64,000 bases of DNA from Arcobacter sp. (GTDB lineage Bacteria; Campylobacterota; Campylobacteria; Campylobacterales; Arcobacteraceae): the NCBI GenBank assembly GCA_002869565.1, contig PKUJ01000025.1:62001-126000 (forward strand), read 5' to 3'. How positions within the stretch are numbered: the stretch's first letter is position 1; every line of letters starts with the position of its first letter. The position numbers and the translations under genes were made by a program. Below the pieces are notes generated by a model that was given only the letters and a program-made list of their open reading frames with translations, was not told the origin of the DNA and did not search any database. Below, one piece after another: positions 14,712 to 48,325 of this stretch.

Positions 14712-14734
14712 GATAAAAAAAGAATAATTAATAC

Positions 14735-14764: not shown

Positions 14765-14904
14765 TGAGCAAAAATCAAATAATAAAAAACACAATATACA
14801 TACGTTAAACAAAGCCTGCTTATTCTCTAAAAATTTTAAGTTAAAATTTTTAATTACTTTTTTTTCATTAGATGTAAAATTTGTTAAACATTTTACATAA
14901 GTAA

Positions 14905-15198: not shown

Positions 15199-15247
15199 AA
15201 ATAGCTAACTTTATATTTAATAAAAAGTTTTTTTATACTACAATATA

Positions 15248-15262
15248 TGAACAAATGTGCGA
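15248..15262 (+). promoter_or_regulatory. Putative IclR-type operator before the aldo/keto reductase
   Basis: TGAACAAATGTGCGA lies eight bases after a TATACT -10 box (15234-15239), just before the ribosome-binding site. It matches the site CGAACATAAGTGCGA at 18496-18510 next to the TATACT box of the EamA-iclR pair, and CGAACATTTGTACGA in the lig promoter. Its position over the likely transcription start suggests repression. Confidence 0.5.
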
Positions 15263-15273
15263 AAAGGATAAAT

Positions 15274-17552: not shown

Positions 17553-18437
17553 TTAATTTTTTTCCCTCGCAATTAATATACCACCCAAAATAATAGCAAA
17601 AATTCCCAAGAATCCTAATAAATTAGGTAAATCATCCCCGAGCAATAATCCTATTATCAATGAAAAAAGAATTACAGAATATCCTGTAGCACCAACGATT
17701 CCCGCCCTTGTTACACCATATGCTTTTGTCATATAAACCTGTCCTAAAGATGCAGTTAATCCAATACCTGCAATATAAAACCAATCTATTGGATTAGGAT
17801 AAATGAATTCTCCCATCATAAAAGAGAAAAAATCACTTTGATAATATTGAGATAAATACATTGAAATAAAAGGTACAACACTACCAATTCCCATGAAACT
17901 TAATACAATAACTCTAGTATCATAATATTTTCTAAGTTCTCGAATACTTGTGAAAGCCAATGCTGCACAAACTGCATTTAATAATCCAAATAAATGTGCT
18001 TTTTCAAATACAAATCCAGAAGGTTGCATTACAAATAACATTCCTGTAAATCCAAGAGCAATTGCCAGCCAACCTTTAACTCCTATTTTTTCTTTTAAAA
18101 ACCACATAGCAAAAATTGCTGTAAAAATTGGAGACATTCTTGAATAAGTTATTGCATCTGCTAAAGTAATATTTGCTAAGTTATAAAAAAAACTTAACAT
18201 TGCAATTAAACCAATAGCCGCTCTGAAAAAAAGCAATAATGGTTTACCACCACTTTGTTTTAATGGTGTTTTAAAAAAAGTTAACCATATTAAGGCAATG
18301 CCAATAACATTTCTAAAAAATACAATTTCGATTGTAGGTAGATGCGTCGCTAGAACTTTTGCAAAAGAACTCATTACAGCTAAACAAACAGCTGAAATAA
18401 GCATATAAAATACACCTTGATTTAATTTTTGTATCAC
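17553..18437 (-). CDS. EamA/DMT-superfamily membrane permease
   Basis: The 294-residue protein has about ten hydrophobic segments and two internal EamA repeats, the second starting around residue 150. Motifs such as VVFFRNVIGIALIWL and YSRMSPIFTAIFAMWFLKEKIG are typical of RhaT/EamA drug/metabolite transporters. It is first in a two-gene operon with the PcaR-type regulator, which suggests movement of an aromatic acid or intermediate. Direction and substrate cannot be predicted. Confidence 0.82.
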   Translation of the reverse strand: MIQKLNQGVFYMLISAVCLAVMSSFAKVLATHLPTIEIVFFRNVIGIALIWLTFFKTPLKQSGGKPLLLFFRAAIGLIAMLSFFYNLANITLADAITYSRMSPIFTAIFAMWFLKEKIGVKGWLAIALGFTGMLFVMQPSGFVFEKAHLFGLLNAVCAALAFTSIRELRKYYDTRVIVLSFMGIGSVVPFISMYLSQYYQSDFFSFMMGEFIYPNPIDWFYIAGIGLTASLGQVYMTKAYGVTRAGIVGATGYSVILFSLIIGLLLGDDLPNLLGFLGIFAIILGGILIAREKN

Positions 18438-18495: not shown

Positions 18496-18510
18496 CGAAC
18501 ATAAGTGCGA
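18496..18510 (-). promoter_or_regulatory. Putative IclR-type operator before EamA-iclR
   Basis: CGAACATAAGTGCGA (plus strand) directly abuts a TATACT box on the minus strand, about 60 bases before the EamA start. It matches the site at 15248-15262 and the downstream half of the lig promoter site. The arrangement would allow autoregulation of the iclR operon. Confidence 0.5.
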
Positions 18511-26349: not shown

Positions 26350-26394
26350 TTTTAGTTAATCATTATTTAATATATAACTTGCTATTCTGTTGCT

Positions 26395-26880
26395 ATGAAA
26401 ACAAAAGAATTAGGATTAAGAATTGAAAGAGTTAAGACTCGTAAACCAGAAATTTATAATGATGTTTTACCTATAGTTGTACCTTTTTATATGTTCCAAC
26501 AAAATTTATCAGAAGGTATTTCTAAAATACAAGAAAATAAATATCAGATTACAAATAGTGAAGTTGATGTTATGAGATGTTTATATTTATCAAATAATGA
26601 TGACAATATATTAAGCCCAACAAAAATTTTTGAAAAATTAATGTTTACATCTGGTGCGATTACAAAAGTTCTAAAGAAACTTGAAGAAAAAGCTTACATA
26701 AAGAGAATAGAGAATAAATATGATAAAAGAAGTAAATTGGTTCAATTAACACCCAAAGGGTGTGAAGTTTGTAAAAATGCTCTTACTGATATGTTTAAAT
26801 ATGAAGAAAAAACATTTTCAAAGCTGACAAAAGAAGAAAGAGAATTATATAAAGATCTTACACTAAAACTTTTAAGTTAA
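26395..26880 (+). CDS. MarR-family regulator of the hydroxycinnamate operon (HcaR/FerR-like)
   Basis: The 161-residue protein is a MarR winged-helix regulator. VDVMRCLYL and LSPTKIFEKLMFTSGAITKVLKKLEEKAYIKRIENKYDKRSKLVQLTPKG form the HTH and beta wing (residues 60-120). It is divergent from the acyl-CoA dehydrogenase that begins the hydroxycinnamate operon. HcaR and FerR regulators of ferulate/p-coumarate clusters are also MarR-type and respond to the CoA thioester; the same role is likely here. Confidence 0.85.
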   Translation: MKTKELGLRIERVKTRKPEIYNDVLPIVVPFYMFQQNLSEGISKIQENKYQITNSEVDVMRCLYLSNNDDNILSPTKIFEKLMFTSGAITKVLKKLEEKAYIKRIENKYDKRSKLVQLTPKGCEVCKNALTDMFKYEEKTFSKLTKEERELYKDLTLKLLS

Positions 26881-28465: not shown

Positions 28466-28504
28466 TGTTCCATATAAAATACAAGTGTTCTTCTATATGG
28501 AACA
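28466..28504. promoter_or_regulatory. Inverted repeat between pobA and its IclR regulator
   Basis: TGTTCCATATA (28466-28476) and TATATGGAACA (28494-28504) are perfect 11-base inverted arms separated by 17 bases. They occupy the middle of the 147-base divergent gap. The symmetry fits binding by the adjacent IclR dimer pair. The sequence is unrelated to the GTTCG operators elsewhere, so pobA appears to be under separate control. Confidence 0.65.
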
Positions 28505-28568: not shown

Positions 28569-29336
28569 ATGAACAAAAGTTCGAATTTATCTTCTGTAGA
28601 AAATGCACTAAAAATTCTTGAATGTTTTACTATAGATGAAACAGAAAAAAGAGTTACAAAAATTTCAGAAGAATTAGGATTAGCAAAAAGTACAGTAAGT
28701 AGACTTATAAAAACACTGCACTCATATGGATATGTAAAAAAAGATTTGGAAACTCAAAAATACTCTTTAGGTACAAAAATTTTATCACTATATAGCAGTT
28801 TAATGTCAGAAATGGAAATAGTAAAAGAAGCCCAACCTTTTTTAGAACAATTAGCTAAGGAAACAAAAGAATCTGTTCAATTAGCTGAACTTGAAGGTTC
28901 TAATGTAATATATACTGAGCAAATAAAATCTTCTTTTCCTATACAAATTTTTGCACATATTGGTAGAATAAACCCTATACATTGTACCAGTTCAGGAAAA
29001 CTACTATTAGCCTACCAAGAAATTGAAACAATTGAAGAGATACTTATTAATAATGAACTAAAAAGATATACCTCATCTACAACTACAAATATAATTCAAT
29101 TAAAAAAAGAACTATTAGAGATTAGGGCTTTAGGTTATTGTTATATAGAAAATGAGTTTATTGATGGAATAGTATCAATTGCAGCACCAATAAGAGACTA
29201 TAATAAAAAAGTTGTAGCAGCAGTATCTTTAGTAGGGCCTATTCAAAGGTTTACTAAAGATAAAATGCCGAGGTTTATAAATAAAGTTATTGATTCCAGT
29301 GATTTAATTTCTAAAACATTAGGATATAACAAATGA
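28569..29336 (+). CDS. IclR-family regulator divergent from pobA
   Basis: The 255-residue protein has an IclR winged helix (SSVENALKILECF, LGLAKSTVSRLIKTLHSYGYV near residues 8-57) and an effector domain with CTSSGKLLLAY and IASIAAPIRD-like SIAAPIRDYNKKVVAAVSL. It is closer to general KdgR-like IclR proteins than the PcaR-type protein at 16.8 kb. Position suggests control of pobA in response to 4-hydroxybenzoate, and of itself, through the inverted repeat at 28466-28504. It ends 20 bases before the convergent aldolase gene. Confidence 0.82.
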   Translation: MNKSSNLSSVENALKILECFTIDETEKRVTKISEELGLAKSTVSRLIKTLHSYGYVKKDLETQKYSLGTKILSLYSSLMSEMEIVKEAQPFLEQLAKETKESVQLAELEGSNVIYTEQIKSSFPIQIFAHIGRINPIHCTSSGKLLLAYQEIETIEEILINNELKRYTSSTTTNIIQLKKELLEIRALGYCYIENEFIDGIVSIAAPIRDYNKKVVAAVSLVGPIQRFTKDKMPRFINKVIDSSDLISKTLGYNK

Positions 29337-32072: not shown

Positions 32073-33122
32073 TTATTTATTATCAATATATCTTTCTTCT
32101 TCAAGTTTTATCATCTGACTTAATATACGTCGAGAAAGTTTTCCACCTGCATCAATGTCAAGACTGATTAAACTCTTATTTGGGAATTTTTCAAGATTTT
32201 TTTGTTGGAACTCTAAAACTTCTAAATCCTCTTCAAATATTCCACCTTGACCTTTTAAAATATCCTGTGTCAATTGATTATCAGTTGGATTAAAGTTTCT
32301 TGCCATTCCCCAAAAATACCACATTGAAGTTTCAGTTTGAGGAGTCATAAAATCTACAACTGTACATCTAACTTTATCTTGCTTAGGTGCATCTTTCCCA
32401 CCTTTTCCTTTTAATGCAACTCCTACATCAATTAATACAGCACCTGGTGGAACAAATTTTGATTTTTGCCATCTATCTACTTTAGCAGTCGGGTCTAAAT
32501 TATTATGTTCCATACACATCTGCCAAAATGGAGGAGCAGTAATATCATCCATATATCTACTTGTAACAACATAACCATCTTCCATTTGGGTATTCACAGG
32601 ACTTTCATCAATCTCTTCTTGCCCAATACTAGTTCCATGGACATACTTCTCATGAGTTAAATCCATCAAATTATCAATCATAAATCTATAATCACATTTA
32701 ATATCAAAAACTCCACCTGCAAATGCCCACTCTTTATTCCCATGCCATTCTAAATAAGGAATTAAAGATTCATCAACTTTTTCTATCTTACCAGGCCAGA
32801 TCCAAATAAATCCATACTTTTCAACAATAGGATAATACTTTGAACAAGGTATTTTTTTAGGATTTTGCATAGGCATATCAACAATTTCACCTTTACAGCC
32901 TACTTTTAATCCATGATAAGCACAAACTAAATCACCCTCTTCCATATAACCTAAGGATAAAGCTGCACCTCTATGTGTACAAAAATCTTCTAAAGCAATT
33001 ACTTCATTTTTTTTATTTCTAAAAAAAACTAATTGAACACCACAGATTACTCTTGAAAATGGCTTATCACTTTTAATCTCTTCGCTTGTTCCTGCGACAT
33101 ACCATGTATTTTTTGGAAACAT
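32073..33122 (-). CDS. vanA: Vanillate O-demethylase oxygenase subunit (Rieske)
   Basis: The 349-residue protein strongly resembles VanA, starting MFPKNTWYVAGTSEEI. The Rieske [2Fe-2S] site is C-T-H near residue 47 and CAYHGLK near residue 66. The mononuclear iron ligands should lie in DNLMDLTHEKYVHG near residue 157. VanA demethylates vanillate to protocatechuate and formaldehyde using electrons from reductase VanB. It is third in the operon dctP-hydrolase-vanA, whose promoter shares its layout with the lig promoter. No VanB-type reductase is present in this window. Confidence 0.9.
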   Translation of the reverse strand: MFPKNTWYVAGTSEEIKSDKPFSRVICGVQLVFFRNKKNEVIALEDFCTHRGAALSLGYMEEGDLVCAYHGLKVGCKGEIVDMPMQNPKKIPCSKYYPIVEKYGFIWIWPGKIEKVDESLIPYLEWHGNKEWAFAGGVFDIKCDYRFMIDNLMDLTHEKYVHGTSIGQEEIDESPVNTQMEDGYVVTSRYMDDITAPPFWQMCMEHNNLDPTAKVDRWQKSKFVPPGAVLIDVGVALKGKGGKDAPKQDKVRCTVVDFMTPQTETSMWYFWGMARNFNPTDNQLTQDILKGQGGIFEEDLEVLEFQQKNLEKFPNKSLISLDIDAGGKLSRRILSQMIKLEEERYIDNK

Positions 33123-33135
33123 TTTTTCTCCTTCT

Positions 33136-33831
33136 TTATAAAAAATTTATTATTGCTTTTGCAACTAATTTTGGCTGCTCAACAGGTGCCATATGACTGG
33201 CATTTTCAATTACAGATAAGGTACTATCTTTTAAGAAATCTTGCATTTTTTCATGTTGTAAAATAGAACTCCACTTATCCTCTGTAGCACTAAGTAACAA
33301 AGTTGAGATATCAACAGTTGATAAAATAGATTGTGAATCAGGACGATTTATTAATGCACCTATTTGTTTTAAGAACTCATCAACACTGTATGATAAAATC
33401 ATTTTTTCAAGTTTATTAAGTAATAAACTATTTTTTAGGCTCTCTTCACTAAGCATAGGAGGAAGCCATTGTTTTCCAACAGCCTTTATTCCCTTCGTTT
33501 TTGCTAAATCAAGTAATTTTCGTCTTACAATAAGTTCAGCTTCACTTTTAGGATGAACACCTGTATTAAATAATCCTAATTTAAGCACTCTTTTGGGTTC
33601 AGTTTTAAAAACTTCTAGAGCAACTCTTCCTCCCATTGAATGACCTATTAATATAAATTTTTTAGGAGCAGTATTTAGTACTTTGTTTGCCATCATTTCA
33701 ATCGAATCACAACCTTTAAATGAAATTATCGATACATTAAAGTTATCCTCTAACTCTTTAGCAACTTCTTCCCAAACCATTTCAGTACACAATAGTCCAC
33801 TAAGAAATACAATGTTCTCTTTTTTTCTCAT
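33136..33831 (-). CDS. Alpha/beta-hydrolase, putative aromatic esterase or lactonase
   Basis: This 231-residue protein is a compact alpha/beta-hydrolase. The nucleophile elbow GHSMGG lies near residue 63, and the catalytic histidine is probably in ENASHMAPVEQP near the C-terminus. It resembles small carboxylesterases and enol-lactonases. It sits between a TRAP receptor and vanA, with eight- and 13-base gaps, so it should be made together with vanillate demethylase. Hydrolysis of a methyl or feruloyl ester that yields a vanillate precursor would fit. A ring-cleavage lactonase is less likely because LigI is present. Confidence 0.78.
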   Translation of the reverse strand: MRKKENIVFLSGLLCTEMVWEEVAKELEDNFNVSIISFKGCDSIEMMANKVLNTAPKKFILIGHSMGGRVALEVFKTEPKRVLKLGLFNTGVHPKSEAELIVRRKLLDLAKTKGIKAVGKQWLPPMLSEESLKNSLLLNKLEKMILSYSVDEFLKQIGALINRPDSQSILSTVDISTLLLSATEDKWSSILQHEKMQDFLKDSTLSVIENASHMAPVEQPKLVAKAIINFL

Positions 33832-33839
33832 AATAAGCC

Positions 33840-34880
33840 TTATTTAGTATTTTTATTTATTGCTTCTCTAGCTTTATCAACAAGCATTTTCCCATCTATA
33901 CCTTTTTGACTTACTTCTTTTATCCATTTTTCAACTACTCTTTGACCTGCCTCATTAAACTCATCAACTGCTTTATCATCTAAAGTAATTATTTCAGAAT
34001 CTTTAGAGTTTTTCTGCATTTTTATACCTGGTTTTTCTACATCCATCCATAATTGCCCAACTTCTTTAACCATATCAAGATTCAAACTCTTTTCTAATAC
34101 ACCTTGTAACTCTTTAGGTAATGAATTAAATTTATCTTTATTCATAAGAAGTAAAAAAACTGAAGTACCAAATCTACTTCCATTTTTTCCTTCTGTTGAA
34201 TATTTAGTTAACTGATGAAATTTAAATGGTGGAAAAACTTCATAAGGGATAAGTGCTCCATCAACTGCATTTTTAGACAAAGCTTGTGGCAATGCAGGTA
34301 AAGGCATACCAACTGGTTCTGCACCAAACTCTTCAATTAGCCACCCGCCAGTTCTTGAAGGAGTTCTAAGTTTTAGACCCTTTAAGTCAGAAATAGAAGT
34401 AATTTTTTTATTTACAGAATGAATTGCATTTCCGGCATGCACATAAACCATAAGTGGTTTAGTCTTTTTAAAATCATCTTTAATTAAATCAAAGTTTTCT
34501 TTTATTGCTACTGATGTATCTAAAGATGAACCTTTGTGAACTGTAGGAAGTTCAAATACTTCAGTTCGAGAGAAAACTCCCGGAGTATATCCAGCAACCG
34601 TCCAAACAATATCAACAACACCATCTCTTGCTTGTTTATAAAGTTCATTTGGTTTTCCACCTAAAGTCATAGAAGGGAAAACTTCTACTTTAATTTTACC
34701 CTTAGACATTTTTTCAACTTTTTCTGCCCAAGGAAGAAGAAATTTCGTATGAGTTGGTGCTTTTGGACTATGTAAATGATGAACCACTAAAGTTATTGGT
34801 TTTTCATTTGCAAATAAGCTATTTGATAGAACTGTTAAACTTGCAATAATTGCGACAAAACTCTTTTTTATTTTTTTCAT
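33840..34880 (-). CDS. TRAP substrate-binding protein DctP, van operon
   Basis: This 346-residue receptor has a signal peptide ending near SLFA and the paralogue-specific stretch LKGLKLRTPSRTGGWLIEEFGAEPVGMPLPALPQALSK. It is more similar to the lig-operon receptor (41205-42239) than to the hydroxycinnamate one. No DctQ or DctM gene is adjacent. It is first in the operon with the hydrolase and vanA and lies under the promoter module at 34935-35028. Vanillate, or the ester cleaved by the hydrolase, is the expected ligand. Confidence 0.86.
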   Translation of the reverse strand: MKKIKKSFVAIIASLTVLSNSLFANEKPITLVVHHLHSPKAPTHTKFLLPWAEKVEKMSKGKIKVEVFPSMTLGGKPNELYKQARDGVVDIVWTVAGYTPGVFSRTEVFELPTVHKGSSLDTSVAIKENFDLIKDDFKKTKPLMVYVHAGNAIHSVNKKITSISDLKGLKLRTPSRTGGWLIEEFGAEPVGMPLPALPQALSKNAVDGALIPYEVFPPFKFHQLTKYSTEGKNGSRFGTSVFLLLMNKDKFNSLPKELQGVLEKSLNLDMVKEVGQLWMDVEKPGIKMQKNSKDSEIITLDDKAVDEFNEAGQRVVEKWIKEVSQKGIDGKMLVDKAREAINKNTK

Positions 34881-34934: not shown

Positions 34935-35028
34935 CGAACAAACGTTACAAAACTATAACATTGACAATTTTAAAGTTCGCTTAACGTACAAATGTTCTAA
35001 AATAGCTTAGAATAGCATTAAAGTAGCA
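34935..35028 (-). promoter_or_regulatory. Composite promoter module of the van operon
   Basis: Reading toward the gene, the module has an 11-bp-phased repeat (AATAGCATTAAAGTAGCA on plus, 35011-35028). Next is the operator GTTCGCTTAACGTAC (34975-34989), then 17 bases to the -10 ACTATA (TATAGT on minus, 34952-34957, preceded by TG). A second CGAAC site follows at 34935-34939. Every spacing equals that of the lig module at 48232-48325, and the two agree at about 73 of 94 bases without gaps. The operator occupies the -35 position, which suggests activation. Confidence 0.7.
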
Positions 35029-35169: not shown

Positions 35170-37050
35170 TTAGTCTCTTAGTAAAAAAATATTAGAGAAA
35201 AATACTTCTAATTCTTCATATGCATCAAGAGGTAAAATATTAGCTACATATTGATCAGGTCTTACAATAATAATACAACCTTTTTTTCTATCTATATCTC
35301 TTATATTAAAAATGTCATTATCATTTTTTAAATCTGGACAATACATTTTTTCATAATCTTTTAAGCCATATTTTCCAATAAGTGGTTTTAATAAACTAGG
35401 TAAATTTTCAAACTCTAAATCATGATGATGTTGTTGAAAAATACTATAAACACTTATAACAGAATCTATATCTTCATCCTTTTTTGTATATTTTAAAATT
35501 GGAGATTTTTCTGAACTTTCTAAATAGTCACACAACTTATAAATTTTAGAGCTAATATCCATAGGATTAGAAGAATCTGCAAAAGCATATATTCTAAATT
35601 TCGCATCAATTTTAACTGTATGACCTAAATGTATAGGTTTTGCATCCCCTAATCTCACAACTGGTGCAGAATGAAATCTCTTACCGATATCAAAACCTTT
35701 TGCTAAATTTTGATATTTATTATTACCTGTTAAAATTGATTTTTCATACTGAACAGAAAGTCCTGCGGTAAAAGTTCCACCTTCAACAAAATGATCTTTT
35801 ACACTTACTGTTTTATTATCAATTGGTGCACTCATTACTCTAGCCCATTTATGGTCATAATCAATTAAAGCTTGTGCAATAGCCCGTCTTTCTGCTGAAT
35901 ATGTATGAAGTAAACTTTCATCACTTTTTCCTGTTAATACAGAAATCAACTTCCAAGCTAAATTAAAGGTATCACCCATAGAAACATTCATTCCTTGACC
36001 TGCTTTTGCACTATGAGTATGACAAGCATCTCCTGCAATAAATACGTGAGGATTTTTATTTTCAATTTCACTTTCAAGGACATCATCGAATTTATCAGTT
36101 AGACTATGCCCCACTTCATAGACAGACCACCATGCAGTTTCTTTTACATCAATCTCATAGGGATGAAAGATTTCTTTACTAGCTTCAATTAATCTATCTA
36201 AAGTTATATTTTTACTCTCACCTCTTTGTTTTAATTTATCTAATTCAACATAGATTCTTAGTAGCTGTCCACCCTCCCTTGGGATTAATAAAATATTTCC
36301 TTTATTTGCAGACTTTATTATATTTTTAAATCTAATATCAGGAAAATTTGTTTTAACTAATACATCCATCACACCCCAAGCTTGACCTTCTCTATCACCT
36401 TTTAATTCTCTGCTAATTGATTTTCTAACTAAACTTCTAGCTCCATCACAACCAACTACATATTTTGCTTTTATAGTTTTAGTTTTTCCATTACAATCTA
36501 TTTGTGCTAAATTTGGATACTCTTTATTTATTTCATCAAATTCTAAATCAACTAAAGAGTGATTATAATCCACTTCTAATCTTGTTGGAGAGTTTTTCAT
36601 TAGCTCTAAATACATATCATGTATTCTTGCTTGATTTAAAACTATATGTGGCATTTCAGACAAACCATCTTTTACATCTTGAACTCTTGTATCTCTGGTA
36701 ATATTTTCAAGATTCTTTTCATCAGGCTTCCAAAAGTTTGTTTCATTTACCCAATAGCCCTCTTTTAAAACTTTTTGGGCAAAACCAAAAGCTTCAAACA
36801 TTTCCATAGAACGGCAAGAGACACCATCTGCTTGACCTAATACCATTGGAGCAGCTTTTTTTTCTATTATTCTAGTTTTGATTTCTGGATATTGAGACAA
36901 TTGAGCAGCTAATGTTAAACCTGCTGGTCCACTACCTATAATTAATACATCTACCTCTTCAGGAAGCTCTCCTTGAATACTTTCATAACCTTTTGCAATA
37001 GTATGAATATCTGGACTACCTGGATGAAAACCATTTACATGAAACTGCAT
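35170..37050 (-). CDS. mobA: 3-hydroxybenzoate 4-monooxygenase
   Basis: This 626-residue FAD monooxygenase has the phenol-hydroxylase layout. VDVLIIGSGPAGLTLAAQL binds FAD near residue 35, CDGARSLVRK lies near residue 200, and FIAGDACHTHSAKAGQGMNVSMGD near 345. A C-terminal thioredoxin-like domain follows. It resembles MobA of Comamonas, which converts 3-hydroxybenzoate to protocatechuate. The divergent MarR gene matches the mobA-mobR layout known there. The promoter carries a GTTCG-type operator and MarR palindromes. Phenol 2-monooxygenase is the main alternative, but lig context argues against it. Confidence 0.88.
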   Translation of the reverse strand: MQFHVNGFHPGSPDIHTIAKGYESIQGELPEEVDVLIIGSGPAGLTLAAQLSQYPEIKTRIIEKKAAPMVLGQADGVSCRSMEMFEAFGFAQKVLKEGYWVNETNFWKPDEKNLENITRDTRVQDVKDGLSEMPHIVLNQARIHDMYLELMKNSPTRLEVDYNHSLVDLEFDEINKEYPNLAQIDCNGKTKTIKAKYVVGCDGARSLVRKSISRELKGDREGQAWGVMDVLVKTNFPDIRFKNIIKSANKGNILLIPREGGQLLRIYVELDKLKQRGESKNITLDRLIEASKEIFHPYEIDVKETAWWSVYEVGHSLTDKFDDVLESEIENKNPHVFIAGDACHTHSAKAGQGMNVSMGDTFNLAWKLISVLTGKSDESLLHTYSAERRAIAQALIDYDHKWARVMSAPIDNKTVSVKDHFVEGGTFTAGLSVQYEKSILTGNNKYQNLAKGFDIGKRFHSAPVVRLGDAKPIHLGHTVKIDAKFRIYAFADSSNPMDISSKIYKLCDYLESSEKSPILKYTKKDEDIDSVISVYSIFQQHHHDLEFENLPSLLKPLIGKYGLKDYEKMYCPDLKNDNDIFNIRDIDRKKGCIIIVRPDQYVANILPLDAYEELEVFFSNIFLLRD

Positions 37051-37074: not shown

Positions 37075-37088
37075 GTTGTATATACAAC
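37075..37088. promoter_or_regulatory. MarR palindrome 1 (mobA leader)
   Basis: GTTGTATATACAAC is a perfect palindrome located 25 bases before the mobA start, inside the likely mobA leader. Identical or near-identical copies lie at 37118-37131 and 37232-37245. It is the expected site for the adjacent MarR protein. Confidence 0.7.
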
Positions 37089-37117
37089 TCTAGAGACAAA
37101 AAAAATAACACTTAGGT

Positions 37118-37131
37118 GTTGTATATACAAC
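37118..37131. promoter_or_regulatory. MarR palindrome 2 (overlaps mobA -10)
   Basis: This second copy of GTTGTATATACAAC overlaps the proposed mobA -10 box (ACTTTA on plus, TAAAGT on minus, 37130-37135). Binding here should block the mobA promoter. Confidence 0.7.
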
Positions 37132-37152
37132 TTTATCATTCTATATTTTAAA

Positions 37153-37167
37153 GTTCGCTTAACGAAC
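37153..37167 (-). promoter_or_regulatory. GTTCG-type IclR operator at the mobA promoter
   Basis: GTTCGCTTAACGAAC is identical to the operator in the lig promoter. It lies 17 bases upstream of the proposed TAAAGT -10 box, the same distance as in the lig and van promoters. A third half-site-like AAAAGTTTAC follows. Confidence 0.7.
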
Positions 37168-37231
37168 AAAAGTTTACTATACAAAAAACAAGTTTTTTTA
37201 TAAAAATTTTCAAATTTAATTTTTTACAAAG

Positions 37232-37245
37232 GTTGTATATGCAAC
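37232..37245. promoter_or_regulatory. MarR palindrome 3 (before marR)
   Basis: GTTGTATATGCAAC is a one-mismatch copy of the palindrome, 27 bases before the marR start. It suggests autoregulation. Confidence 0.65.
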
Positions 37246-39273: not shown

Positions 39274-40671
39274 TTATCCCGCCAAAAACCTTGGCATAAA
39301 TAAAACAATCCATGGTAATAACAGTAATAGACCAATTCTCACAATTTCAGCTGCAAAAAATGGCATTACACCTTTAAAAGTTTCTGACATAGGAACTTTG
39401 TCTGAAATTTTTGAAATAATAAATACATTTAATCCTACAGGAGGAGTTATAAGGCCTAACTCAACGGATATAAGTGCCAATATTCCAAACCATATTTTTA
39501 GCTCATCTAAATTCATTCCAAAGGCAGCATTACTAGCTGTTACATACTCTCCACCATTAATATTTATTAATACTGGCCAAATAAATGGGATAACAACAAG
39601 AATCATTGCCATCGAATCCATAAAAAATCCTAGTATAATGAATATAATTAGTATAGAGATAAGTATCAACCAAGGATCCATTTGTACATTAACAGCCCAT
39701 TCTGCTATTGCTTGTGGAAGTCCAGATCGTGTAAAGAAGCCTTTTAAAACCTCTGCACCAAAAAGTATAAAATAAATCATTGCACTTGAAACAGATGTTT
39801 CAAGTAGACTCTGTTTTAACCTATCTAAGGTTAAACCTTCACCTTTACCAAATCTAATTCTTAAATAGACTCCATACATTGCAATAATAAATACACCAGC
39901 TGCTGCTGCGGGAGTTGGGGTAAACAGACCTAATCCAAGACCTAAGATAATTGAACCAAAAGTTAAAACAACAGGAATTAACCTCCATAAAGCTTTATTT
40001 CTTTCCTCTTTTGTCAAAGGTTTTGATGCAGGTGCAATTTCTGGTTTTATTCTTACTTGAATGGCAATCACTGCAATAAAAAACAGTACAGCAATTAATC
40101 CTGGAATAATTGCTGCTTGAAACATTTCAATAATTGATGCTTCTACAACAATTGCATATAAAATTAATGCAATTGAAGGGGGAATTAAAATACCAAGTGT
40201 TCCACCAGCAGCAAGAGTACCCGTTGATAACCTTGGAGAATAATTTAGTTTATCAAGCTCCGGTAATGCAATTTTTCCCATTGTTGAGGCTGTTGCTAAA
40301 GAAGAACCTGAAACTGCTCCAAATCCTGCACAAGCACCAATTGCAGTAATTGCAACTCCACCTTTGTATTTTCCAAGTATTGCGTTCATTCCCATAAAAA
40401 GATCTTGTGCCAACTTTGTATGGCTAGCCAAATATCCCATTAATATAAAAAGAGGGATAACTGATAAATTATAATTTGCTAAATTTTCCCAAAGCAAACT
40501 TTTATACTGCATGATATATGGCATAAATCTAATATATGGGACATATAAAGACAGTACAAAAGTACCAAATATTCCTACAAAAGCCATTGCAAAAGCTACA
40601 CGAGCTTTTAGCATTAGTAAAATGAAAAATACAGCTAAGCCCAATAACCCTATAATCTCTTTTTCACCCAT
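39274..40671 (-). CDS. TRAP transporter large membrane subunit DctM, lig operon
   Basis: This 465-residue hydrophobic protein has about 12-13 membrane segments and DctM motifs such as AVSGSSLATASTMGKIALPEL, GTLGILIPPSIALILYA and LGLITPPVGLNVFII. It is the last gene of the ten-gene lig operon. Its start overlaps the end of dctQ by eight bases. With DctQ it forms the only aromatic-type TRAP membrane pair in the island, and so may serve the receptors at 23, 34 and 42 kb. Confidence 0.92.
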   Translation of the reverse strand: MGEKEIIGLLGLAVFFILLMLKARVAFAMAFVGIFGTFVLSLYVPYIRFMPYIMQYKSLLWENLANYNLSVIPLFILMGYLASHTKLAQDLFMGMNAILGKYKGGVAITAIGACAGFGAVSGSSLATASTMGKIALPELDKLNYSPRLSTGTLAAGGTLGILIPPSIALILYAIVVEASIIEMFQAAIIPGLIAVLFFIAVIAIQVRIKPEIAPASKPLTKEERNKALWRLIPVVLTFGSIILGLGLGLFTPTPAAAAGVFIIAMYGVYLRIRFGKGEGLTLDRLKQSLLETSVSSAMIYFILFGAEVLKGFFTRSGLPQAIAEWAVNVQMDPWLILISILIIFIILGFFMDSMAMILVVIPFIWPVLININGGEYVTASNAAFGMNLDELKIWFGILALISVELGLITPPVGLNVFIISKISDKVPMSETFKGVMPFFAAEIVRIGLLLLLPWIVLFMPRFLAG

Positions 40672-41194
40672 CTATTTTTCCCCCTTTATGTAAGAATATT
40701 TGGAATGCTAATACTACTGACCATAAAACAAGAGAAATGATTCCAGGTGCATAAAATGGCCATTCAAACCAACCTAATGTAGTTGAAACAGCACCATCTT
40801 CAAAGGATTCAATCATTCCTAAGAACATTAAAATTCCTAAAAATATAACAAAAACTAAAGTACAACTAAGCCATAGTATGTCTAAAATTTGTTGCCATTT
40901 TGATGAAAATTTATCAGCAAAAAAATCAACTGCTACATGCCCCCTTTGAGCTTGTGCCCAAGGAAAAAACATCAAGGCTATACAACTAGTTAATAACCTT
41001 ACTAAATCCTCATATCCAGATAAGGCAGAAACATTCGAATCAAAAATTCTTGCAACTTTATCTAATCCAAAAGCTGCAATATTAATAACTGTTGTAAGGA
41101 CTACTATTAGAAGTAGAATTCCAGCAAAATATAACCACCATAGACATATCTTCTTTAATTTTCCTTCCAAGTATAATCTTAATCTAGCTTGCAT
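40664..41194 (-). CDS. TRAP transporter small membrane subunit DctQ, lig operon
   Basis: This is a protein of about 176 residues with four membrane segments. The region LVRLLTSCIALMFFPWAQAQRGHVAVDFFAD is the DctQ signature. Start ATG 41194 is chosen because AAAGG lies just before it and it sits ten bases after the dctP stop; a longer frame would overlap dctP. It bridges DctM and the periplasmic receptor. Confidence 0.86.
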   Translation of the reverse strand: MQARLRLYLEGKLKKICLWWLYFAGILLLIVVLTTVINIAAFGLDKVARIFDSNVSALSGYEDLVRLLTSCIALMFFPWAQAQRGHVAVDFFADKFSSKWQQILDILWLSCTLVFVIFLGILMFLGMIESFEDGAVSTTLGWFEWPFYAPGIISLVLWSVVLAFQIFLHKGGKIDG

Positions 41195-41204
41195 AATTAA
41201 CCTT

Positions 41205-42239
41205 TTATTTACTATATTTAGAAATAGTTTCTCTAGCTGTATCAACTAACTTCTGACCATCAATACCTTTTTCTTTTGCTTCAATAATCCATTTATCAAC
41301 AACTTTCTGACCTGCTTTATCAAACTCATCTAAAGTTTTTTTATCAAATTTAACAACTTCACTATCTTTTGATTTATTTTGCATTTTTTTACCTGGTTCT
41401 TCTAAATCCATCCATAATTGTCCTGCAAATTTTGATAATTCCATACCACTATTATCTAAAATTATTTTTTGTAATTCAGGAGATAATTTATTAAATCTCT
41501 TTTTATTCATTAACATCATAAAAATTGAAGTACCAAATCTCTCTTTGTTTACACCTTCATAAGAATAATGAGTTAACTGATGAAATTTATATGGAGGAAA
41601 AACCTCAAAAGGTACTAATGCTCCATCAATTGCATTTTTAGATAAAGCTTGAGGTAATGCTGGTAAGGGCATACCTACAGGTTCAGCACCATACTCTTCA
41701 ATCAACCATCCACCACTTCTTGATGGAGTTCTAAATTTTAATCCTTTTAAATCTTTTACACTTGTAATTTTTTTATTAACTGTATGAATTGCATTTCCAG
41801 CTGCTGCATGAATTAATAAAGGAACTACATCTTTATAATCACCTTCAATTAAATCCATATTTTCTCTAATTGCTATTGTCGTTGCTAAAGAATCCCCTTT
41901 ATGTACTGTTGGTAATTCGTAAACTTCAGTTCTAGGAAAAACGCCTGGAGTATAACCTGCTAAGGTCCAAACAATATCAGAGACACCATCTCTTGCTTGC
42001 TTATACAATTCATTTGGTTTACCACCCATTGTCATAGTTGGGAAAATTTCAACTTTTAATTTTCCTTTTGAAGCTTCTTCAATTTTTTTTGCCCAAGGCA
42101 TTAATAATTTTGTATGTGTTGGTGCTTTTGAACTCATAAAATGATGTACAATTAATGTTTCAGTTTTTGCATACAAGGCACTAGATAATACCATTGACCC
42201 TGCTAAAAACAAAGCACCTCGTGTAAATATATTTTGCAT
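41205..42239 (-). CDS. TRAP substrate-binding protein DctP, lig operon
   Basis: This 344-residue receptor has a signal peptide ending at ALYA, then ETLIVHHFMSSKAPTHTKLLMPWAKK. FRTPSRSGGWLIEEYGAEPVGMPLPALPQ carries the carboxylate-binding arginine. It is encoded directly before dctQ and dctM and after ligC. Protocatechuate or a hydroxybenzoate is the expected ligand. It is the receptor genetically tied to the membrane pair that the two orphan paralogues probably share. Confidence 0.9.
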   Translation of the reverse strand: MQNIFTRGALFLAGSMVLSSALYAKTETLIVHHFMSSKAPTHTKLLMPWAKKIEEASKGKLKVEIFPTMTMGGKPNELYKQARDGVSDIVWTLAGYTPGVFPRTEVYELPTVHKGDSLATTIAIRENMDLIEGDYKDVVPLLIHAAAGNAIHTVNKKITSVKDLKGLKFRTPSRSGGWLIEEYGAEPVGMPLPALPQALSKNAIDGALVPFEVFPPYKFHQLTHYSYEGVNKERFGTSIFMMLMNKKRFNKLSPELQKIILDNSGMELSKFAGQLWMDLEEPGKKMQNKSKDSEVVKFDKKTLDEFDKAGQKVVDKWIIEAKEKGIDGQKLVDTARETISKYSK

Positions 42240-42262
42240 AATTACTTTCCTAACCTTTTTTA

Positions 42263-43201
42263 TTATTTCATATTTTTTTCAAGTAAATCTAAAACTTTCA
42301 TTGCTGATAAGGCTTGGTTTACACTAGCATTTGGCTCACGGCCATCTCTAATAGCAGAGATAAACTCCCTATCTTGAAGTTCAATACCATTCATAGATAC
42401 ATCAACTTTTGAAACATCAATTTGTTCCTCTTTTCCATTAAATAAATCATCGTATCTTGCTATATATGTTCCATTATCACAGATATATCTAAAGAAAGTT
42501 CCTAATGGTCCATCATTGTTAAAAGATAATGATAGTGTACAAATTTTTCCACTTACAGTTTTAAGACCAATACTCATGTCAAGTGCAATTCCAAGTTCAG
42601 GATGAACTGGTCCTTGCATTGCTTGAACATCAACAATCTCTTCACCTGCTTGATAATAGAATAAATCTACTGTATGACAAGCATGATGCCACAATAAATG
42701 ATCAACCCAAGATCTTGGTTCACCCAAAGCATTTGTATTTGTTCTTCTGAAAAAATAAGTTTGAACATCCATTTGTTGGATACTTAATTCCCCTGCTTTA
42801 ATTTTATTATGAACATATTGATGAGAAGGATTAAATCTTCTTGTATGTCCAGCCATTGCAACTAAACCTGTCTCTTTTTGCTTATTAACAATTGCTTGTG
42901 CATCAGCTAAAGAATCAGCCATAGGAATTTCAATCATCACATGTTTTCCTGCATCCATTAGAGCAATTGCTTGTTCTGCATGTATCTGAGTAGGACTAGT
43001 AATAATTGCTGCATCAAAATCATATTTTAATGCATCTTCTAAGGTTAAAGTATAGTTTGGAATATTAAATGACTCAGCTACTTTTCGAGTACCTTCTTCT
43101 CTTCTTCCAACTAAACATACAACTTCTGCACCTTCAATATTAGATAGAGCATCTAAATGTTTTTTTCCAAATGCTCCATTTCCAACAACACATATTTTCA
43201 T
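42263..43201 (-). CDS. ligC: 4-carboxy-2-hydroxymuconate-6-semialdehyde dehydrogenase
   Basis: The 312-residue protein belongs to the Gfo/Idh/MocA fold. GNGAFGKKHLDAL binds NAD(P) at the N-terminus, and a C-terminal domain contains WVDHLLWHHACHTVDLFYY. It resembles LigC of Sphingobium SYK-6 (315 residues). It oxidises the hemiacetal form of the ring-cleavage product to 2-pyrone-4,6-dicarboxylate. It follows ligB by five bases in the lig operon. Position and family both support the call. Confidence 0.92.
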   Translation of the reverse strand: MKICVVGNGAFGKKHLDALSNIEGAEVVCLVGRREEGTRKVAESFNIPNYTLTLEDALKYDFDAAIITSPTQIHAEQAIALMDAGKHVMIEIPMADSLADAQAIVNKQKETGLVAMAGHTRRFNPSHQYVHNKIKAGELSIQQMDVQTYFFRRTNTNALGEPRSWVDHLLWHHACHTVDLFYYQAGEEIVDVQAMQGPVHPELGIALDMSIGLKTVSGKICTLSLSFNNDGPLGTFFRYICDNGTYIARYDDLFNGKEEQIDVSKVDVSMNGIELQDREFISAIRDGREPNASVNQALSAMKVLDLLEKNMK

Positions 43202-43206
43202 ACTTA

Positions 43207-44055
43207 TTAGTCCTCCTTATTCTCTAAAATTGTTAAACTATAATTTGTATTTGAAATTGGAGTATGCATAAACCGATGAACTTCATTCACTTGCTTTTCT
43301 AATGCACCTCTCATAACTAACCACATAATAGCCTCGGCACCTTCACTACCCGTTTCTCTTATTAATTCAGTTACTGAAATATCTTTAATACTTTCTGGAC
43401 TATTTACTAAACTATCTAACCATTTTCTATCATAATCTTGATTTATAAGACCAGCTCTTGGTCCTTGTAATTGATGAGATAATCCACCTGTTCCCATAAT
43501 TGCAACTCTTGTATCCTCAGGATAAGATTCTACTGCTTCTTTAATTGCTTTCCCTAAGTTATAACATCTATTTCCCTTTGGTTGCGGATATTGAACAACA
43601 CCAACATATAAAGGAATAAATTTACAAGGCCACTCTTGGCAATCCTCACCAAATGCAATTGAGGCTGGAACTGAGAATCCATGATCAACATCTAACTCGA
43701 AAGAAAATGCTACATCAAACTCTTTTTCATTAAAGTGTTCTGCTATATGTGCCGATAATGCAGAATCACCTTTAAAAGTTGGAACTGGTCTTCTTCCGTA
43801 TCCTTCATCTGCAGGTAAATACTCATCAGCAATACCAATACCAAAAGGAATAACATTTTTTAAAGAGAAATTTGAACCATGGTCATTATAAACAATAATA
43901 CAAACATCAGGTTTTTTTTCTTTCATCCAAGCTCTTAAAGGTTTAATACCCTCATTGAAATCTTCCCAATATGGACCTTCATTTGTCTTACCATCAAATG
44001 CATGCATAATTGTAGGTATATGAGATGTACCTATTCCTCCAATAATCTTACCCAT
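43207..44055 (-). CDS. ligB: Protocatechuate 4,5-dioxygenase beta subunit
   Basis: This catalytic subunit has about 282 residues. The Fe(II) ligands seen in LigB structures map to His in GTSHIPTIMHAF, His in YNDHGSNF, and Glu in GAEAIMWLVMRGAL. It opens the protocatechuate ring between C4 and C5 with O2. Start ATG 44055 is chosen because GAGGAG lies eight bases upstream; it overlaps the ligA stop by eight bases, which implies coupled translation of the two subunits. Confidence 0.94.
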   Translation of the reverse strand: MGKIIGGIGTSHIPTIMHAFDGKTNEGPYWEDFNEGIKPLRAWMKEKKPDVCIIVYNDHGSNFSLKNVIPFGIGIADEYLPADEGYGRRPVPTFKGDSALSAHIAEHFNEKEFDVAFSFELDVDHGFSVPASIAFGEDCQEWPCKFIPLYVGVVQYPQPKGNRCYNLGKAIKEAVESYPEDTRVAIMGTGGLSHQLQGPRAGLINQDYDRKWLDSLVNSPESIKDISVTELIRETGSEGAEAIMWLVMRGALEKQVNEVHRFMHTPISNTNYSLTILENKED

Positions 44056-44467
44056 TTTTTTTCTCCTCATTGTCTTTTATACTTCTATTTCCTTCAATTG
44101 GTCTTCCACCATCTAACATCATTTGTTGAAACTCTTCAGTTGTAACAGGAGGAACATTCATAGTTGCACCTGCTTGTTGCATATGAATACCAAGTGTTGC
44201 AGCTATTTTCCATAAATAATAAATATTTCCACCTAAATCTAAAAGATAATTTAAATCTTTTCTTCTAACTCCATCTTTCATCTCTTCAGTTAATTTTGGG
44301 AATCTACTCATATATTCTTCTTCATCATCAAGAAAAGCTTGTCTTGCTTCTTCTGTGTTTAATGTGTCACAAAATTTATTTAATTCATAACCTTTAATAC
44401 AAGTTTGTAAATCAAAAACAATTGTTCCTGGAATATCTTTATAATCTCTGTCTTCATATTTAATCAT
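44048..44467 (-). CDS. ligA: Protocatechuate 4,5-dioxygenase alpha subunit
   Basis: The 139-residue protein has the same length as LigA of Sphingobium SYK-6. It is a helical LigA-fold subunit with GYELNKFCDTLN and LLDLGGNIYYLWKIAATLG, which cover the active site of the beta subunit. It is upstream of and overlaps ligB. Together they make the alpha2beta2 extradiol dioxygenase. Confidence 0.93.
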   Translation of the reverse strand: MIKYEDRDYKDIPGTIVFDLQTCIKGYELNKFCDTLNTEEARQAFLDDEEEYMSRFPKLTEEMKDGVRRKDLNYLLDLGGNIYYLWKIAATLGIHMQQAGATMNVPPVTTEEFQQMMLDGGRPIEGNRSIKDNEEKKNG

Positions 44468-44479
44468 TTTAATTTCTCC

Positions 44480-45514
44480 TTAACCAAAGTATTTTTCTAA
44501 ATGTATATTAATTCTTGGATAGACTTTTTTGATATTCTCTTCAAATATCATTATTTTTTTATTATTACTAATTTTGGCAGCATCTATGTAGCGTTTAGTA
44601 TCATCAAAATAATGTCCTGTTAATGGATCTATTCCTCTTACTGCCCCTATCATCTCTGAAGCAAATAAAATATTTTCAGTAGGAACTAAATCTAATAATA
44701 AGTCTATCCCTTCTTGATGATAAACGCAAGTATCAAAATAAATATTATTCTCTATAATATTATTAATATTGTCAAGCTCTAGCATATCTGCTAAACCTCT
44801 ATATCTTCCCCAATGATATGGTACTGCTCCACCACCATGAGGTATAACAAATTTTAAATTTGGAAAATCTTTAAATAAAGTTTTACTCATAAATAGCTGG
44901 GTAAATGCCGTTGTATCAGCACCTAAGTAATAAGATGATGTAGCATGAAAAGTACAATTACAAGAACCACTTACATGAATCATAGCAGGAACTTCAAGTT
45001 CAACCATTTTTTCATATAATGGATACCAATATTTATCATCTAAAGGTGGAACATCGTTAAAATAACCTCCAGATGGATCTGGATTTAAATTACAGCCAAT
45101 AAACCCTAATTCATTTACACATCTCTCTAGCTCTTTAATACTTGCCTCCAAGCCTTCACCGGGGGATTGAGGAAGTTGTGCAACTCCAACAAAGTTTTTA
45201 GGAAATAGACCAACAATTCTTGCAATTAAATCATTACAATGTTCCGTCCAAGTAACACTAGTACTTAGATTTCCAACATGGTGTTCCATTCTACTAGCTC
45301 TTGGAGAAAAAATTGTTAAATCTGTTCCTCTATCTTGTTGTAGTTTTAACTGATTATTTACGATGCTTTCTCTTAATTGTTCATCAGTTATATGAATTTC
45401 ACCTTTTAAGTGCTGAATCAAAGGGTTATCTTTTAACTCTTTTTTCTGGTTATCTCTATAATCTGTTAATTCTTGTGGAGCTGTTGTATAGTGCCCATGG
45501 CAGTCAATAATCAT
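44480..45514 (-). CDS. ligJ: 4-oxalomesaconate hydratase
   Basis: This 344-residue amidohydrolase-superfamily protein starts MIIDCHGHYTTAP, whose H-x-H is a metal site and which closely resembles LigJ. Further ligands are expected in MIHVSGSC, IPHGGGAVPYHWGRY and FASEMIGAVRGIDP. It hydrates 4-oxalomesaconate to 4-carboxy-4-hydroxy-2-oxoadipate. In the operon it follows ligK by one base and precedes ligA. Confidence 0.93.
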   Translation of the reverse strand: MIIDCHGHYTTAPQELTDYRDNQKKELKDNPLIQHLKGEIHITDEQLRESIVNNQLKLQQDRGTDLTIFSPRASRMEHHVGNLSTSVTWTEHCNDLIARIVGLFPKNFVGVAQLPQSPGEGLEASIKELERCVNELGFIGCNLNPDPSGGYFNDVPPLDDKYWYPLYEKMVELEVPAMIHVSGSCNCTFHATSSYYLGADTTAFTQLFMSKTLFKDFPNLKFVIPHGGGAVPYHWGRYRGLADMLELDNINNIIENNIYFDTCVYHQEGIDLLLDLVPTENILFASEMIGAVRGIDPLTGHYFDDTKRYIDAAKISNNKKIMIFEENIKKVYPRINIHLEKYFG

Positions 45515-45515
45515 T

Positions 45516-46235
45516 TTATTTTGCCTCCTCTAAATCTTTTTGTGTTTCAAAATATGTAAATCCTGCTTTTTCTAAACCTGGTCTCATTTTATATAAATCA
45601 AGTCCTAAAACACCATTTTCAAATTGTTCTCTTTTTTCACCTTCATAATCTTCTCTTTTTTGAGCTGCATCTGCAACTGTTTTTGCATCTTCTGATGCAA
45701 TAATACAAATCCCATCATCATCAGCAACTACTACATCACCAGGATTTACAATTTGTCCTGCACATACAATAGGAATATTTACTGAACCTAAAGTATTTTT
45801 AACTGTACCTCTAATACTTACAGCTTTAGACCATACTGGGAAATCCATCTCTTCTAAATCTTTTGTATCTCTAACACCTGCATCAATTACTAAACCTTTT
45901 ATACCTTGTGCAATTGCAGATGTTGCTAATAAATCTCCAAAAAAACCATCAGTATTTGGTGTTGTACAAGCAGCAATAATAATATCACCTGGTTGTGCTA
46001 ATTCCATAGCAACATGTAACATCCAATTATCACCTGGTTGAAGTAAAACTGTAATTGCACTTCCTGCAATTCTTTTACCTTTTAATATAGGTCTTAATTC
46101 AGGATGTAATTCACCTACTCTTTTTTGTGCTTCATGAACTGTTGCAGCTCCAAATTTTTCTAATCTATTTATCTCTTCTTGGGGCGCTCTATCAATGTTT
46201 TTGACAGCAACTCCCAAATGTTGTTTTCTAATCAT
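45516..46235 (-). CDS. ligK: 4-carboxy-4-hydroxy-2-oxoadipate aldolase / oxaloacetate decarboxylase
   Basis: This RraA-fold aldolase has about 239 residues. The signature [28 protein letters not shown] carries the G-x-x-R-D substrate site and the metal-binding aspartate. It splits 4-carboxy-4-hydroxy-2-oxoadipate into pyruvate and oxaloacetate, the end products of the pathway. Start ATG 46235 is chosen because GGGAGGA lies eight bases before it, after the ligI stop. Its length is close to LigK/ProA. Confidence 0.92.
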
Positions 46236-46237
46236 TT

Positions 46238-47110
46238 CTAGTCCTCCCACCCATATAATCTAGCTGGGTTATCTACTAATATTTTTTTTTGTAACTCTTT
46301 GTCTGGAACCATTAAAGCAAATAAATCTAGTAAATCTGCATCATTTGGCATATACTCTTTTATATTTGGATGAGGACAATCTGTTCCCCATAAAATTCTA
46401 TCAGGAGCAATTGATACTAACCTTTGTGCATAAGGAATTGCATCATAAAATGGTGGTTGTACAGCAATTCTTTCTGCACAAGAGATTTTAACCCACCAAT
46501 TTGGCTTTTTCATAAAATCACAAAGAATTTTAAATGCCTCCTGCTCAACTCCTTGGCTAGTTGGAACTCTTCCCATATGATCAACGACAATTGTAATATC
46601 AAACTTAGCAAAAAAATCTGCATATTTGATAATATCTTCAGCATTTACATGAATTACTAAATGCCATCCAAAAGGAATAACTTTATTAATTATTCTTTCC
46701 ATCATCTCTAAATCAGGAGCTCCACCTAAATGAGTAACAAAATTAAATCTAACACCTTTAATACCATTTTCATCTAAATATTTAAAATCTTCATAAGTAA
46801 ATGAATCATCAGCCATACAAACACCCTTATATCTTTTAGGGTCATTTTTTATAGCATCTAACATAGCAGAGTTATCTTTACCATGACAAGAAGCTTGAAC
46901 TAAAACAGCTCTTGAAATACCAATTTTATCATGCATTTTTCTTAAAAGTGCTTCTGGTGTATTTGGTGGCCAATATGTTGCCTTATCAGAGTATGGAAAT
47001 ACCTCATGAGGTCCAAATATGTGACAATGCGCATCAGTAGCATTCTCCATTGTTTTATAAACTGGCGTCTTAGTATTTCTATCTGGTGCCATACAAGTTT
47101 TCTTACTCAA
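46238..47110 (-). CDS. ligI: 2-pyrone-4,6-dicarboxylate hydrolase
   Basis: This 290-residue amidohydrolase-like TIM barrel has the family features [11 protein letters not shown] near residue 26, [19 protein letters not shown] and [11 protein letters not shown]. LigI of SYK-6 is 293 residues and metal-independent. It hydrolyses 2-pyrone-4,6-dicarboxylate to 4-oxalomesaconate (as the 4-carboxy-2-hydroxymuconate tautomer). It lies between ligU and ligK with 11- and 2-base gaps. Confidence 0.93.
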
Positions 47111-47121
47111 AATAATTCTCC

Positions 47122-48210
47122 TTATATATTATTCAATATTTCTTTGTGAGGATATGCCTCACCTCTACTTATTAGTCTTGCAGTTCTTAAAAGTCCTGCC
47201 TTACTTATATTTAATTTATTATCAATTTTAGTTGTTGTTAATTCAACCTGAAACTCTCCACTTGGATGTTCCACTTTAATATTTACAATTGGTGTATTTC
47301 TAATTTTTATAAAATCACTAGTTACACACTCATCATACAAACATGCACTAGCAACAGAAACTGCTCCTAAAACACCAATTGAAGAATGACAATTATGAGG
47401 GATAAATGTTCTAGTATTAATATCTCTACCACTTTTTGATGAAGATACTATTGTCATTTTAGGAACAACCCTATTTGAAACATCGCCTAAATTCATAAGT
47501 GGTCCAACTTTTAATCTAATTGTCTCAAGTTTTTTTCTAAATTCACTATCATTGCTTAATTCTTCACAACTTTCATATCCTGTTTTTCCTAATTCATTTG
47601 CATTAATAATAACAACAGGCATACCATTATCAATACAGGTAACGTTAATACCATTTATTAAATCCTTTTTATTCCCTGTTGGAAATAAAGAACCACAAAC
47701 AGAACCAGCTACATCCATATAGTTACATATAATAGGAGCAGATGTTCCCGGAACCCCATCAATTTTTGCATTACCTTCATAAGTTAACTTACCATTTGGT
47801 GTTTGCAGTACAAGTTCGCAAATGTTATTACTGTTAAGCATATTTACTTTAATTGAAGTTACATCATCAATAATTTTTATCATATTATTTTCAATTGCAA
47901 AAGCACCAACACCGGCAAGAATATTTCCACAGTTAGGAGAACTGTCAACTCTATTTTCACCAACAACTACTTGGATAAACAAAAAATCAATATCGCAATC
48001 TTGATTTTCAGAGTTATTTATTATTGCAACTTTACTCGTAAGTGGGTTCGCTCCACCTAATCCATCAATTTGTCTTATATCTCGCCCAACAATACTTAAT
48101 ATAATTTCATCTCTTAATTTTATATCAGTAGGTAAATCATCTTTTTTAAAATAAATACCTTTTGAACTTCCACCTCTGATAATCATATATGGTATTGAAG
48201 AAAAACTCAT
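47122..48210 (-). CDS. ligU: 4-oxalomesaconate tautomerase (PrpF family)
   Basis: The 362-residue protein has the PrpF/diaminopimelate-epimerase-like fold. It begins IPYMIIRGGSSKGIYFKKDDLP, and DSSPNCGNILAGVGAFAI is the conserved catalytic region near residue 90. GalD and LigU of this family move the double bond of 4-oxalomesaconate so that LigJ can hydrate it. As the first gene of the lig operon it lies right behind the composite promoter. LigU versus GalD is a naming choice; both act on the same compound class. Confidence 0.87.
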   Translation of the reverse strand: MSFSSIPYMIIRGGSSKGIYFKKDDLPTDIKLRDEIILSIVGRDIRQIDGLGGANPLTSKVAIINNSENQDCDIDFLFIQVVVGENRVDSSPNCGNILAGVGAFAIENNMIKIIDDVTSIKVNMLNSNNICELVLQTPNGKLTYEGNAKIDGVPGTSAPIICNYMDVAGSVCGSLFPTGNKKDLINGINVTCIDNGMPVVIINANELGKTGYESCEELSNDSEFRKKLETIRLKVGPLMNLGDVSNRVVPKMTIVSSSKSGRDINTRTFIPHNCHSSIGVLGAVSVASACLYDECVTSDFIKIRNTPIVNIKVEHPSGEFQVELTTTKIDNKLNISKAGLLRTARLISRGEAYPHKEILNNI

Positions 48211-48231: not shown

Positions 48232-48325
48232 CGAACATTTGTACGAAAACTATAACAATAGTAATTTTAAAGTTCGCTTAACGAACAAAAGTTCTTTTTA
48301 AGCTAGAAATAGCATTAAAATAGCA
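48232..48325 (-). promoter_or_regulatory. Composite promoter module of the lig operon
   Basis: Reading toward ligU, the module starts with two TGCTATT words 11 bp apart (AATAGCATTAAAATAGCA on plus, 48308-48325). The operator GTTCGCTTAACGAAC (48272-48286) comes next, followed 17 bases later by the -10 ACTATA (TATAGT on minus, 48249-48254, with TG before it). CGAACATTTGTACGA (48232-48246) is last. Half-sites recur with 10-bp period. The 5-5-5 operator layout resembles sites I recall for PcaU/PobR-type IclR regulators. Confidence 0.72.

Follow-up and report, generated by a model that had tools for sequence, protein, structure and literature searches.

Regulators of IclR group 1, among them PcaU, PcaR and PobR, recognize sites of the form GTNCG-N5-6-CGNAC. 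Some IclR sites additionally carry an external half-site (three-box sites), and tandem sites are spaced by whole helix turns (Suvorova and Gelfand, PMC8222616). For PcaR, the outcome depends on position: upstream boxes activate, while a box at the -10 element or below leads to repression (PMC12455658). A different site type, direct repeats 11 bp apart, is used by ArcA, PhoB and OmpR (PMC3798270).

We analyzed a 64,000-nucleotide stretch of an Arcobacter sp. genome (contig PKUJ01000025.1; hereafter the window), in which aromatic-degradation promoters combine sequences of both forms. To our knowledge, Campylobacterota are not usually linked with lignin aromatics. Taken as a whole, they would represent a PcaU/PcaR-like regulon to which a global input has been added.

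Anatomy of the promoter module at lig, van and mobA

Two operons on the minus strand of the window carry the complete module: the lig operon (ligU-I-K-J-A-B-C, dctP, dctQ, dctM; 39274-48210) and the van operon (dctP, an alpha/beta hydrolase gene and vanA; 32073-34880). An earlier, sequence-only reading had counted about 73 of 94 identical bases between lig 48232-48325 and van 34935-35028, with four elements at equal spacing. Our recount gave the same 73/94, ungapped and with the elements in register, whereas 20,000 same-base shuffles of the pair had a mean identity of 29.2 (sd 4.2) and a maximum of 47. A genome search for the module, as that reading had suggested, recovered van and also an additional copy of the operator/-10 core (37113-37206) at mobA. 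This copy had been missed, so the module is wider than the lig/van pair. In a whole-genome blastn search with the lig promoter, the van copy (E 3e-20) and the mob copy (E 8.5e-9) ranked directly after lig itself, and a relaxed three-box pattern (≤3 mismatches) had three matches in the 3.49 Mb genome: lig, van and mob. The mobA gene (35170-37050, minus strand) belongs to the phenol-hydroxylase family and probably encodes a 3-hydroxybenzoate 4-monooxygenase.

At lig, all elements lie on the minus strand. A predicted two-box IclR-type site, CGTAC-AAAT-GTTCG (48232-48245; about -2 to +11), starts 3-4 bp past an extended -10 element, TG-T-TATAGT (48249-48254). At 17 bp from the latter, in the -35 position, lies a predicted three-box IclR operator, GAAC-TTTT-GTTCG-TTAAG-CGAAC (48272-48294; core 48272-48286), followed further upstream by the 11-bp direct repeat TGCTATT-N4-TGCTATT (48308-48325; about -83 to -66). 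The van promoter, likewise on the minus strand, has GTAAC-GTTT-GTTCG with a degenerate first box (34935-34948), the extended -10 TG-T-TATAGT (34952-34957), a predicted three-box operator GAAC-ATTT-GTACG-TTAAG-CGAAC (34975-34997) whose core (34975-34989) reads GTACG-N5-CGAAC with one mismatch, and the repeat TGCTACT-N4-TGCTATT (35011-35028). The CGAAC site of the earlier reading is thus present at its place but constitutes only half of the second, two-box site at about +1. Its GTTCG-N5 operator was also correctly located, although it is actually a three-box IclR-family site of the PcaU type, GAAC-N4-GTTCG-N5-CGAAC, found in lig, van, mob and their relatives.

The third copy, at mobA (minus strand), comprises the predicted operator AAAC-TTTT-GTTCG-TTAAG-CGAAC (37153-37175), with a perfect core GTTCGTTAAGCGAAC at 37153-37167, and a -10 element, TG-A-TAAAGT (37130-37135), again 17 bp from the operator. 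No TGCTATT repeat was found at the mobA promoter of the window. The mobA/MarR intergenic region also contains three GTTGTATATACAAC-type palindromes (37075-37088, 37118-37131 and 37232-37245), of which the copy at 37118-37131 overlaps the mobA -10/start region; one copy is also present in G008, a genome of the same genus. These palindromes stand in for the +1 site at mobA and are probably operators of the adjacent, MobR-like MarR protein.

In 13/13 promoters from seven genomes, exactly 17 bp separate CGNAC from the -10 hexamer, and 12 of the 13 have a -10 of the extended type; the chance of encountering such a -10 word is ~0.2% per position. The spacing noted for lig and van is therefore also kept in other genomes. 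Judged by its sequence, this is a conserved composite promoter with a core of ordinary IclR design, in which the fixed replacement of the -35 box and the added global-type site are less ordinary.

To follow the module further, ligB was searched in 100 genomes, with five positives including our own, and further lig clusters were obtained by other searches. In G008, the complete module precedes ligU, an hpaB-like gene and oprD, while mobA, which heads a mobA-dctP-hydrolase-vanA run there, has the module minus the downstream two-box site. G383 carries the full module before ligU and before oprD-mobA-dctP-hydrolase-vanA. As this genome was picked solely for having iclR1 (see below), its modules represent a successful out-of-sample prediction. 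The lig promoters of G018 and G030 lack the TGCTATT repeat and are otherwise complete, with three-box site, -10 and downstream two-box site. Across the lig promoters of G008, G383, G030 and G018, the downstream two-box site is conserved. Finally, G055 and G029, where no ligB was found, have iclR1 (59-60% identical) immediately before a tctC-tctB-tctA operon, whose promoter has boxes at the same distance from the -10.

IclR1 and the sign of control

The best candidate for binding all GTTCG sites is the product of iclR1 (16764-17552, minus strand), which forms a conserved pair with the upstream eamA transporter gene (17553-18437, minus strand). IclR1 passes the Pfam models IclR_C and HTH_IclR with 98.3 and 46 bits (curated cut-offs 24 and 22). 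Its best NCBIfam family is PcaR/PcaU/PobR (TIGR02431), with 249.6 bits under a cut-off of 284.75; we therefore call it PcaU-like and do not file it as a member. Among solved-structure matches, the PcaR structure 8eju ranks second.

Both iclR1 and the sites occur in 7/7 Campylobacterota lig clusters (G000, G008, G383, G018, G030, G095, G282), and the eamA-iclR1 pair in most of these seven genomes. Among 11 Vibrionaceae lig clusters, we found iclR1 in 0/11 within the fetched region and a GTTCG-type site upstream of ligU in 0/11. The two that were tested have a divergent AraC-type gene (L063 4814-5704, L067 4804-5700), with LigB ~62% identical. Together with the conserved gene neighborhood and a recognition helix (ITRASARR) that is nearly invariant among iclR1 orthologues and differs from that of iclR2, this co-occurrence makes IclR1, already named as regulator in the earlier reading, the likely regulator of the GTTCG sites.

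Two-box sites were also found apart from the module. CGCAC-TTAT-GTTCG (18496-18509, minus strand) lies directly past the -10-like box of eamA-iclR1, in the same place in G008 and G383, and probably mediates iclR1 autoregulation. A second site, GAAC-AAAT-GTGCG (15249-15261, plus strand), lies in the leader of an aldo/keto reductase (AKR) gene, and the MFS-AKR operons of G008 and G383 have a two-box site upstream as well. The real start of the AKR gene is probably at about 15274, the listed one at 15247 being probably too early; in the preceding region (14700-15274), where relatives have an MFS transporter gene, the window seemingly holds just a degraded remnant.

Because these sites differ in position (-35 versus past the -10 or in the leader), and in view of the PcaR position rule, we infer a dual regulator: IclR1 would act as activator at -35 and as brake or repressor at +1, and would repress its own synthesis. 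G095 and G282, whose lig clusters are distant, have these sites not at -35 but at the -10, past it or further upstream, which suits repression; the -35 arrangement is therefore not universal.

Our preferred explanation, which we consider quite probable, sees in the 94-bp module a composite sigma-70 promoter that depends on its regulators, with IclR1 at -35 and a response regulator upstream. The PcaR/PcaU-like IclR1 would bind the three-box site (about -52 to -30), which would stand in for the -35 box and keep a constant distance to the extended -10, and would activate once it has bound a compound of the pathway, either protocatechuate or one of its products. By additionally binding the two-box site at about +1, it would put a brake on lig, while a two-box site alone would result in repression of eamA-iclR1 and the MFS/AKR genes. 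On the upstream side, the adjoining TGCTATT repeats would bind an OmpR/PhoB-type response regulator reporting the general carbon or energy state, and with both regulators stacked, lig and van could integrate both signals. The module would have been copied between aromatic operons and thereafter kept by selection.

Alternatively, IclR1 might be purely a repressor, covering both the start site and the region around -35 until released by an inducer, in which case the spacing would reflect occlusion or looping between sites. Many IclR proteins repress, and a two-box site at +1 in the lig, hpaB and oprD promoters as well as sites directly past the -10 in the G095, eamA-iclR1 and AKR promoters are compatible with this reading. 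However, an extended -10 that lacks a -35 box but has an operator exactly 17 bp away fits activation, the -35 operator is kept at mobA and tctC although these promoters have no +1 site, and the closest characterized relatives (PcaR, PcaU, PobR) are activators or dual regulators. We therefore regard pure repression as rather unlikely.

The TGCTATT repeat and a candidate response regulator

The 11-bp-phased TGCTATT repeat had been described as a part of the lig and van promoters. It is present in both but is not specific to them: TGCTATT-N4-TGCTATT (≤1 mismatch) has 32 matches genome-wide, versus 2 for the reversed pattern. It is over-represented across the genus as well and nearly missing from genomes outside the family. 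Genes nearby, with names read from translations, include paa, TRAP and ABC binding proteins, frd, actP and respiratory genes. One member of this wider set (10395-10412, plus strand) precedes a TRAP dctP gene and has no GTTCG site beside it. A variant, TGCTATT-N4-TGCTATG, is located at the start of a MarR gene (26380-26397), between this gene and a ferulate-type operon, and the same word is found in G383.

As the 11-bp repeats form an independent, over-represented set, a second factor, as proposed from the sequence alone, very likely acts at them. With tandem copies 11 bp apart from center to center, they have the form of OmpR/PhoB sites. We consider it unlikely that they are instead a structural or UP-like element of Arcobacteraceae promoters and not a regulator site. 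The repeat is AT-rich, lies upstream of -35 and, at some loci, is oriented opposite to the nearest gene, as such an element could be; yet the heptamer is sequence-specific and in strict 11-bp phase, the reversed pattern is almost absent, and the repeat occurs at certain carbon and respiration genes rather than at all promoters.

For the regulator reading, the best candidate would be P0001, an OmpR-type regulator whose gene is flanked by a sensor kinase gene and dctPQM, beside lactate-utilization genes. At this locus (L151, G000:C21:132000-143000), lutB-like genes, the kinase, the OmpR-type regulator (137166-137807) and TRAP dctPQM follow one another in a single run, and a TGCTATT repeat comes directly behind the regulator gene. 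The exact repeat lies 12-45 bp past the P0001 stop codon, in the dctP promoter, in 10/16 genomes of the genus, a count confounded by kinship, and the 28 genomes with P0001 hold 69/74 exact sites, where kinship is likewise a confounder. Since the lig promoters of G018 and G030 and the mobA promoter of the window have no TGCTATT repeat, the two inputs are not obligatory partners.

Tentatively, and with considerable doubt, we propose that TGCTATT-N4-TGCTATT marks a so far undescribed global carbon regulon of the Arcobacteraceae, which would be governed by the response regulator of the lutB-kinase-regulator-dctPQM locus and wired onto IclR-type aromatic promoters as a two-input module copied between operons. 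Literature searches for a TGCTATT motif, and for protocatechuate catabolism or TRAP two-component systems in Arcobacter, returned nothing usable.

iclR2, the origin of the module and relation to known systems

A second IclR gene, iclR2 (28569-29336), is located in the same cluster beside pobA, and its product matches the NCBIfam PcaR/PcaU/PobR family with 176 bits. It is nevertheless very unlikely that this protein, rather than IclR1, binds the GTTCG sites: the lig clusters of G018, G030, G095 and G282 have GTTCG sites and iclR1, but no iclR2 was detected at them, the recognition helix of iclR2 is different, and its own intergenic region contains another inverted repeat. This repeat, GTTCCATATA-N17-TATATGGAAC (28467-28476 and 28494-28503), lies between pobA and iclR2, is conserved in G008 and is the probable iclR2 operator. 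A possible two-box site, GAAC-N4-GTTCG, spans the iclR2 start codon (28570-28583, minus strand). Three genomes keep it, even where the residue changes, although it requires rare codons (TCG makes up 2.2% of Ser codons and AAC 13.8% of Asn codons); it might allow cross-repression of iclR2 by IclR1.

Similarity between lig and van had been said to continue upstream of the module. This holds weakly over the next 100 bp, with 56% identity (other shifts ≤50%, shuffles 40%), and we found no similarity beyond ~100 bp. In view of this weak upstream similarity, the modules probably share ancestry. Although some likeness thus extends past the module, the elements and their spacing are kept across genomes and at unrelated operons while the flanks diverge, which makes a recent neutral promoter duplication without shared regulation barely credible.

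Promoter duplication as such is plausible. The further suggestion that the promoter was duplicated with its dctP genes found no support: the lig promoter drives ligU, with the lig dctP as the eighth gene ~6 kb downstream. Co-duplication is also unsupported because the module or its core precedes ligU, mobA, hpaB and oprD elsewhere, and tctCBA without dctP in G055 and G029. The idea was dropped after a gene-order and identity test (dctP pair 65.6%). In a quartet test for within-genome promoter homogenization, two lig promoters paired against van and hpaB (94%), whereas other quartets favored within-genome pairs. Given this mixed outcome, we do not claim concerted evolution.

Among described systems, PcaU and PobR of Acinetobacter baylyi and PcaR of Pseudomonas putida share the site core GTNCG-N5-CGNAC, and PcaU requires an extra external half-site for binding, as present in the three-box sites here (PMC8222616). 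These regulators likewise target protocatechuate catabolism, with activation or repression set by site position (PMC12455658). Unlike in those systems, the pathway here proceeds by 4,5- (meta) cleavage, an OmpR-type repeat is added and the regulator scores under the NCBIfam cut-off. In sphingomonads, the genes coordinated by LigR include the 4,5-cleavage pathway. LigR also coordinates aromatic catabolism genes (PMC12710314) but belongs to another regulator family, LysR.

The upstream repeat resembles ArcA/PhoB/OmpR sites, which also consist of two direct repeats 11 bp apart at global carbon and respiration genes (PMC3798270), but its heptamer is TGCTATT. In the same phylum, RacR of Campylobacter jejuni is a response regulator that acts on metabolic genes, at a promoter lacking a -35 box (PMC4456614). 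From the TGCTATT set, one would expect the Arcobacteraceae to have a global carbon regulator, and our model predicts, base by base, how Campylobacterota would switch on aromatic catabolism. Across these systems, the pathway enzymes are kept while the regulators differ: IclR here, AraC-type beside the Vibrionaceae operons and LysR in sphingomonads.
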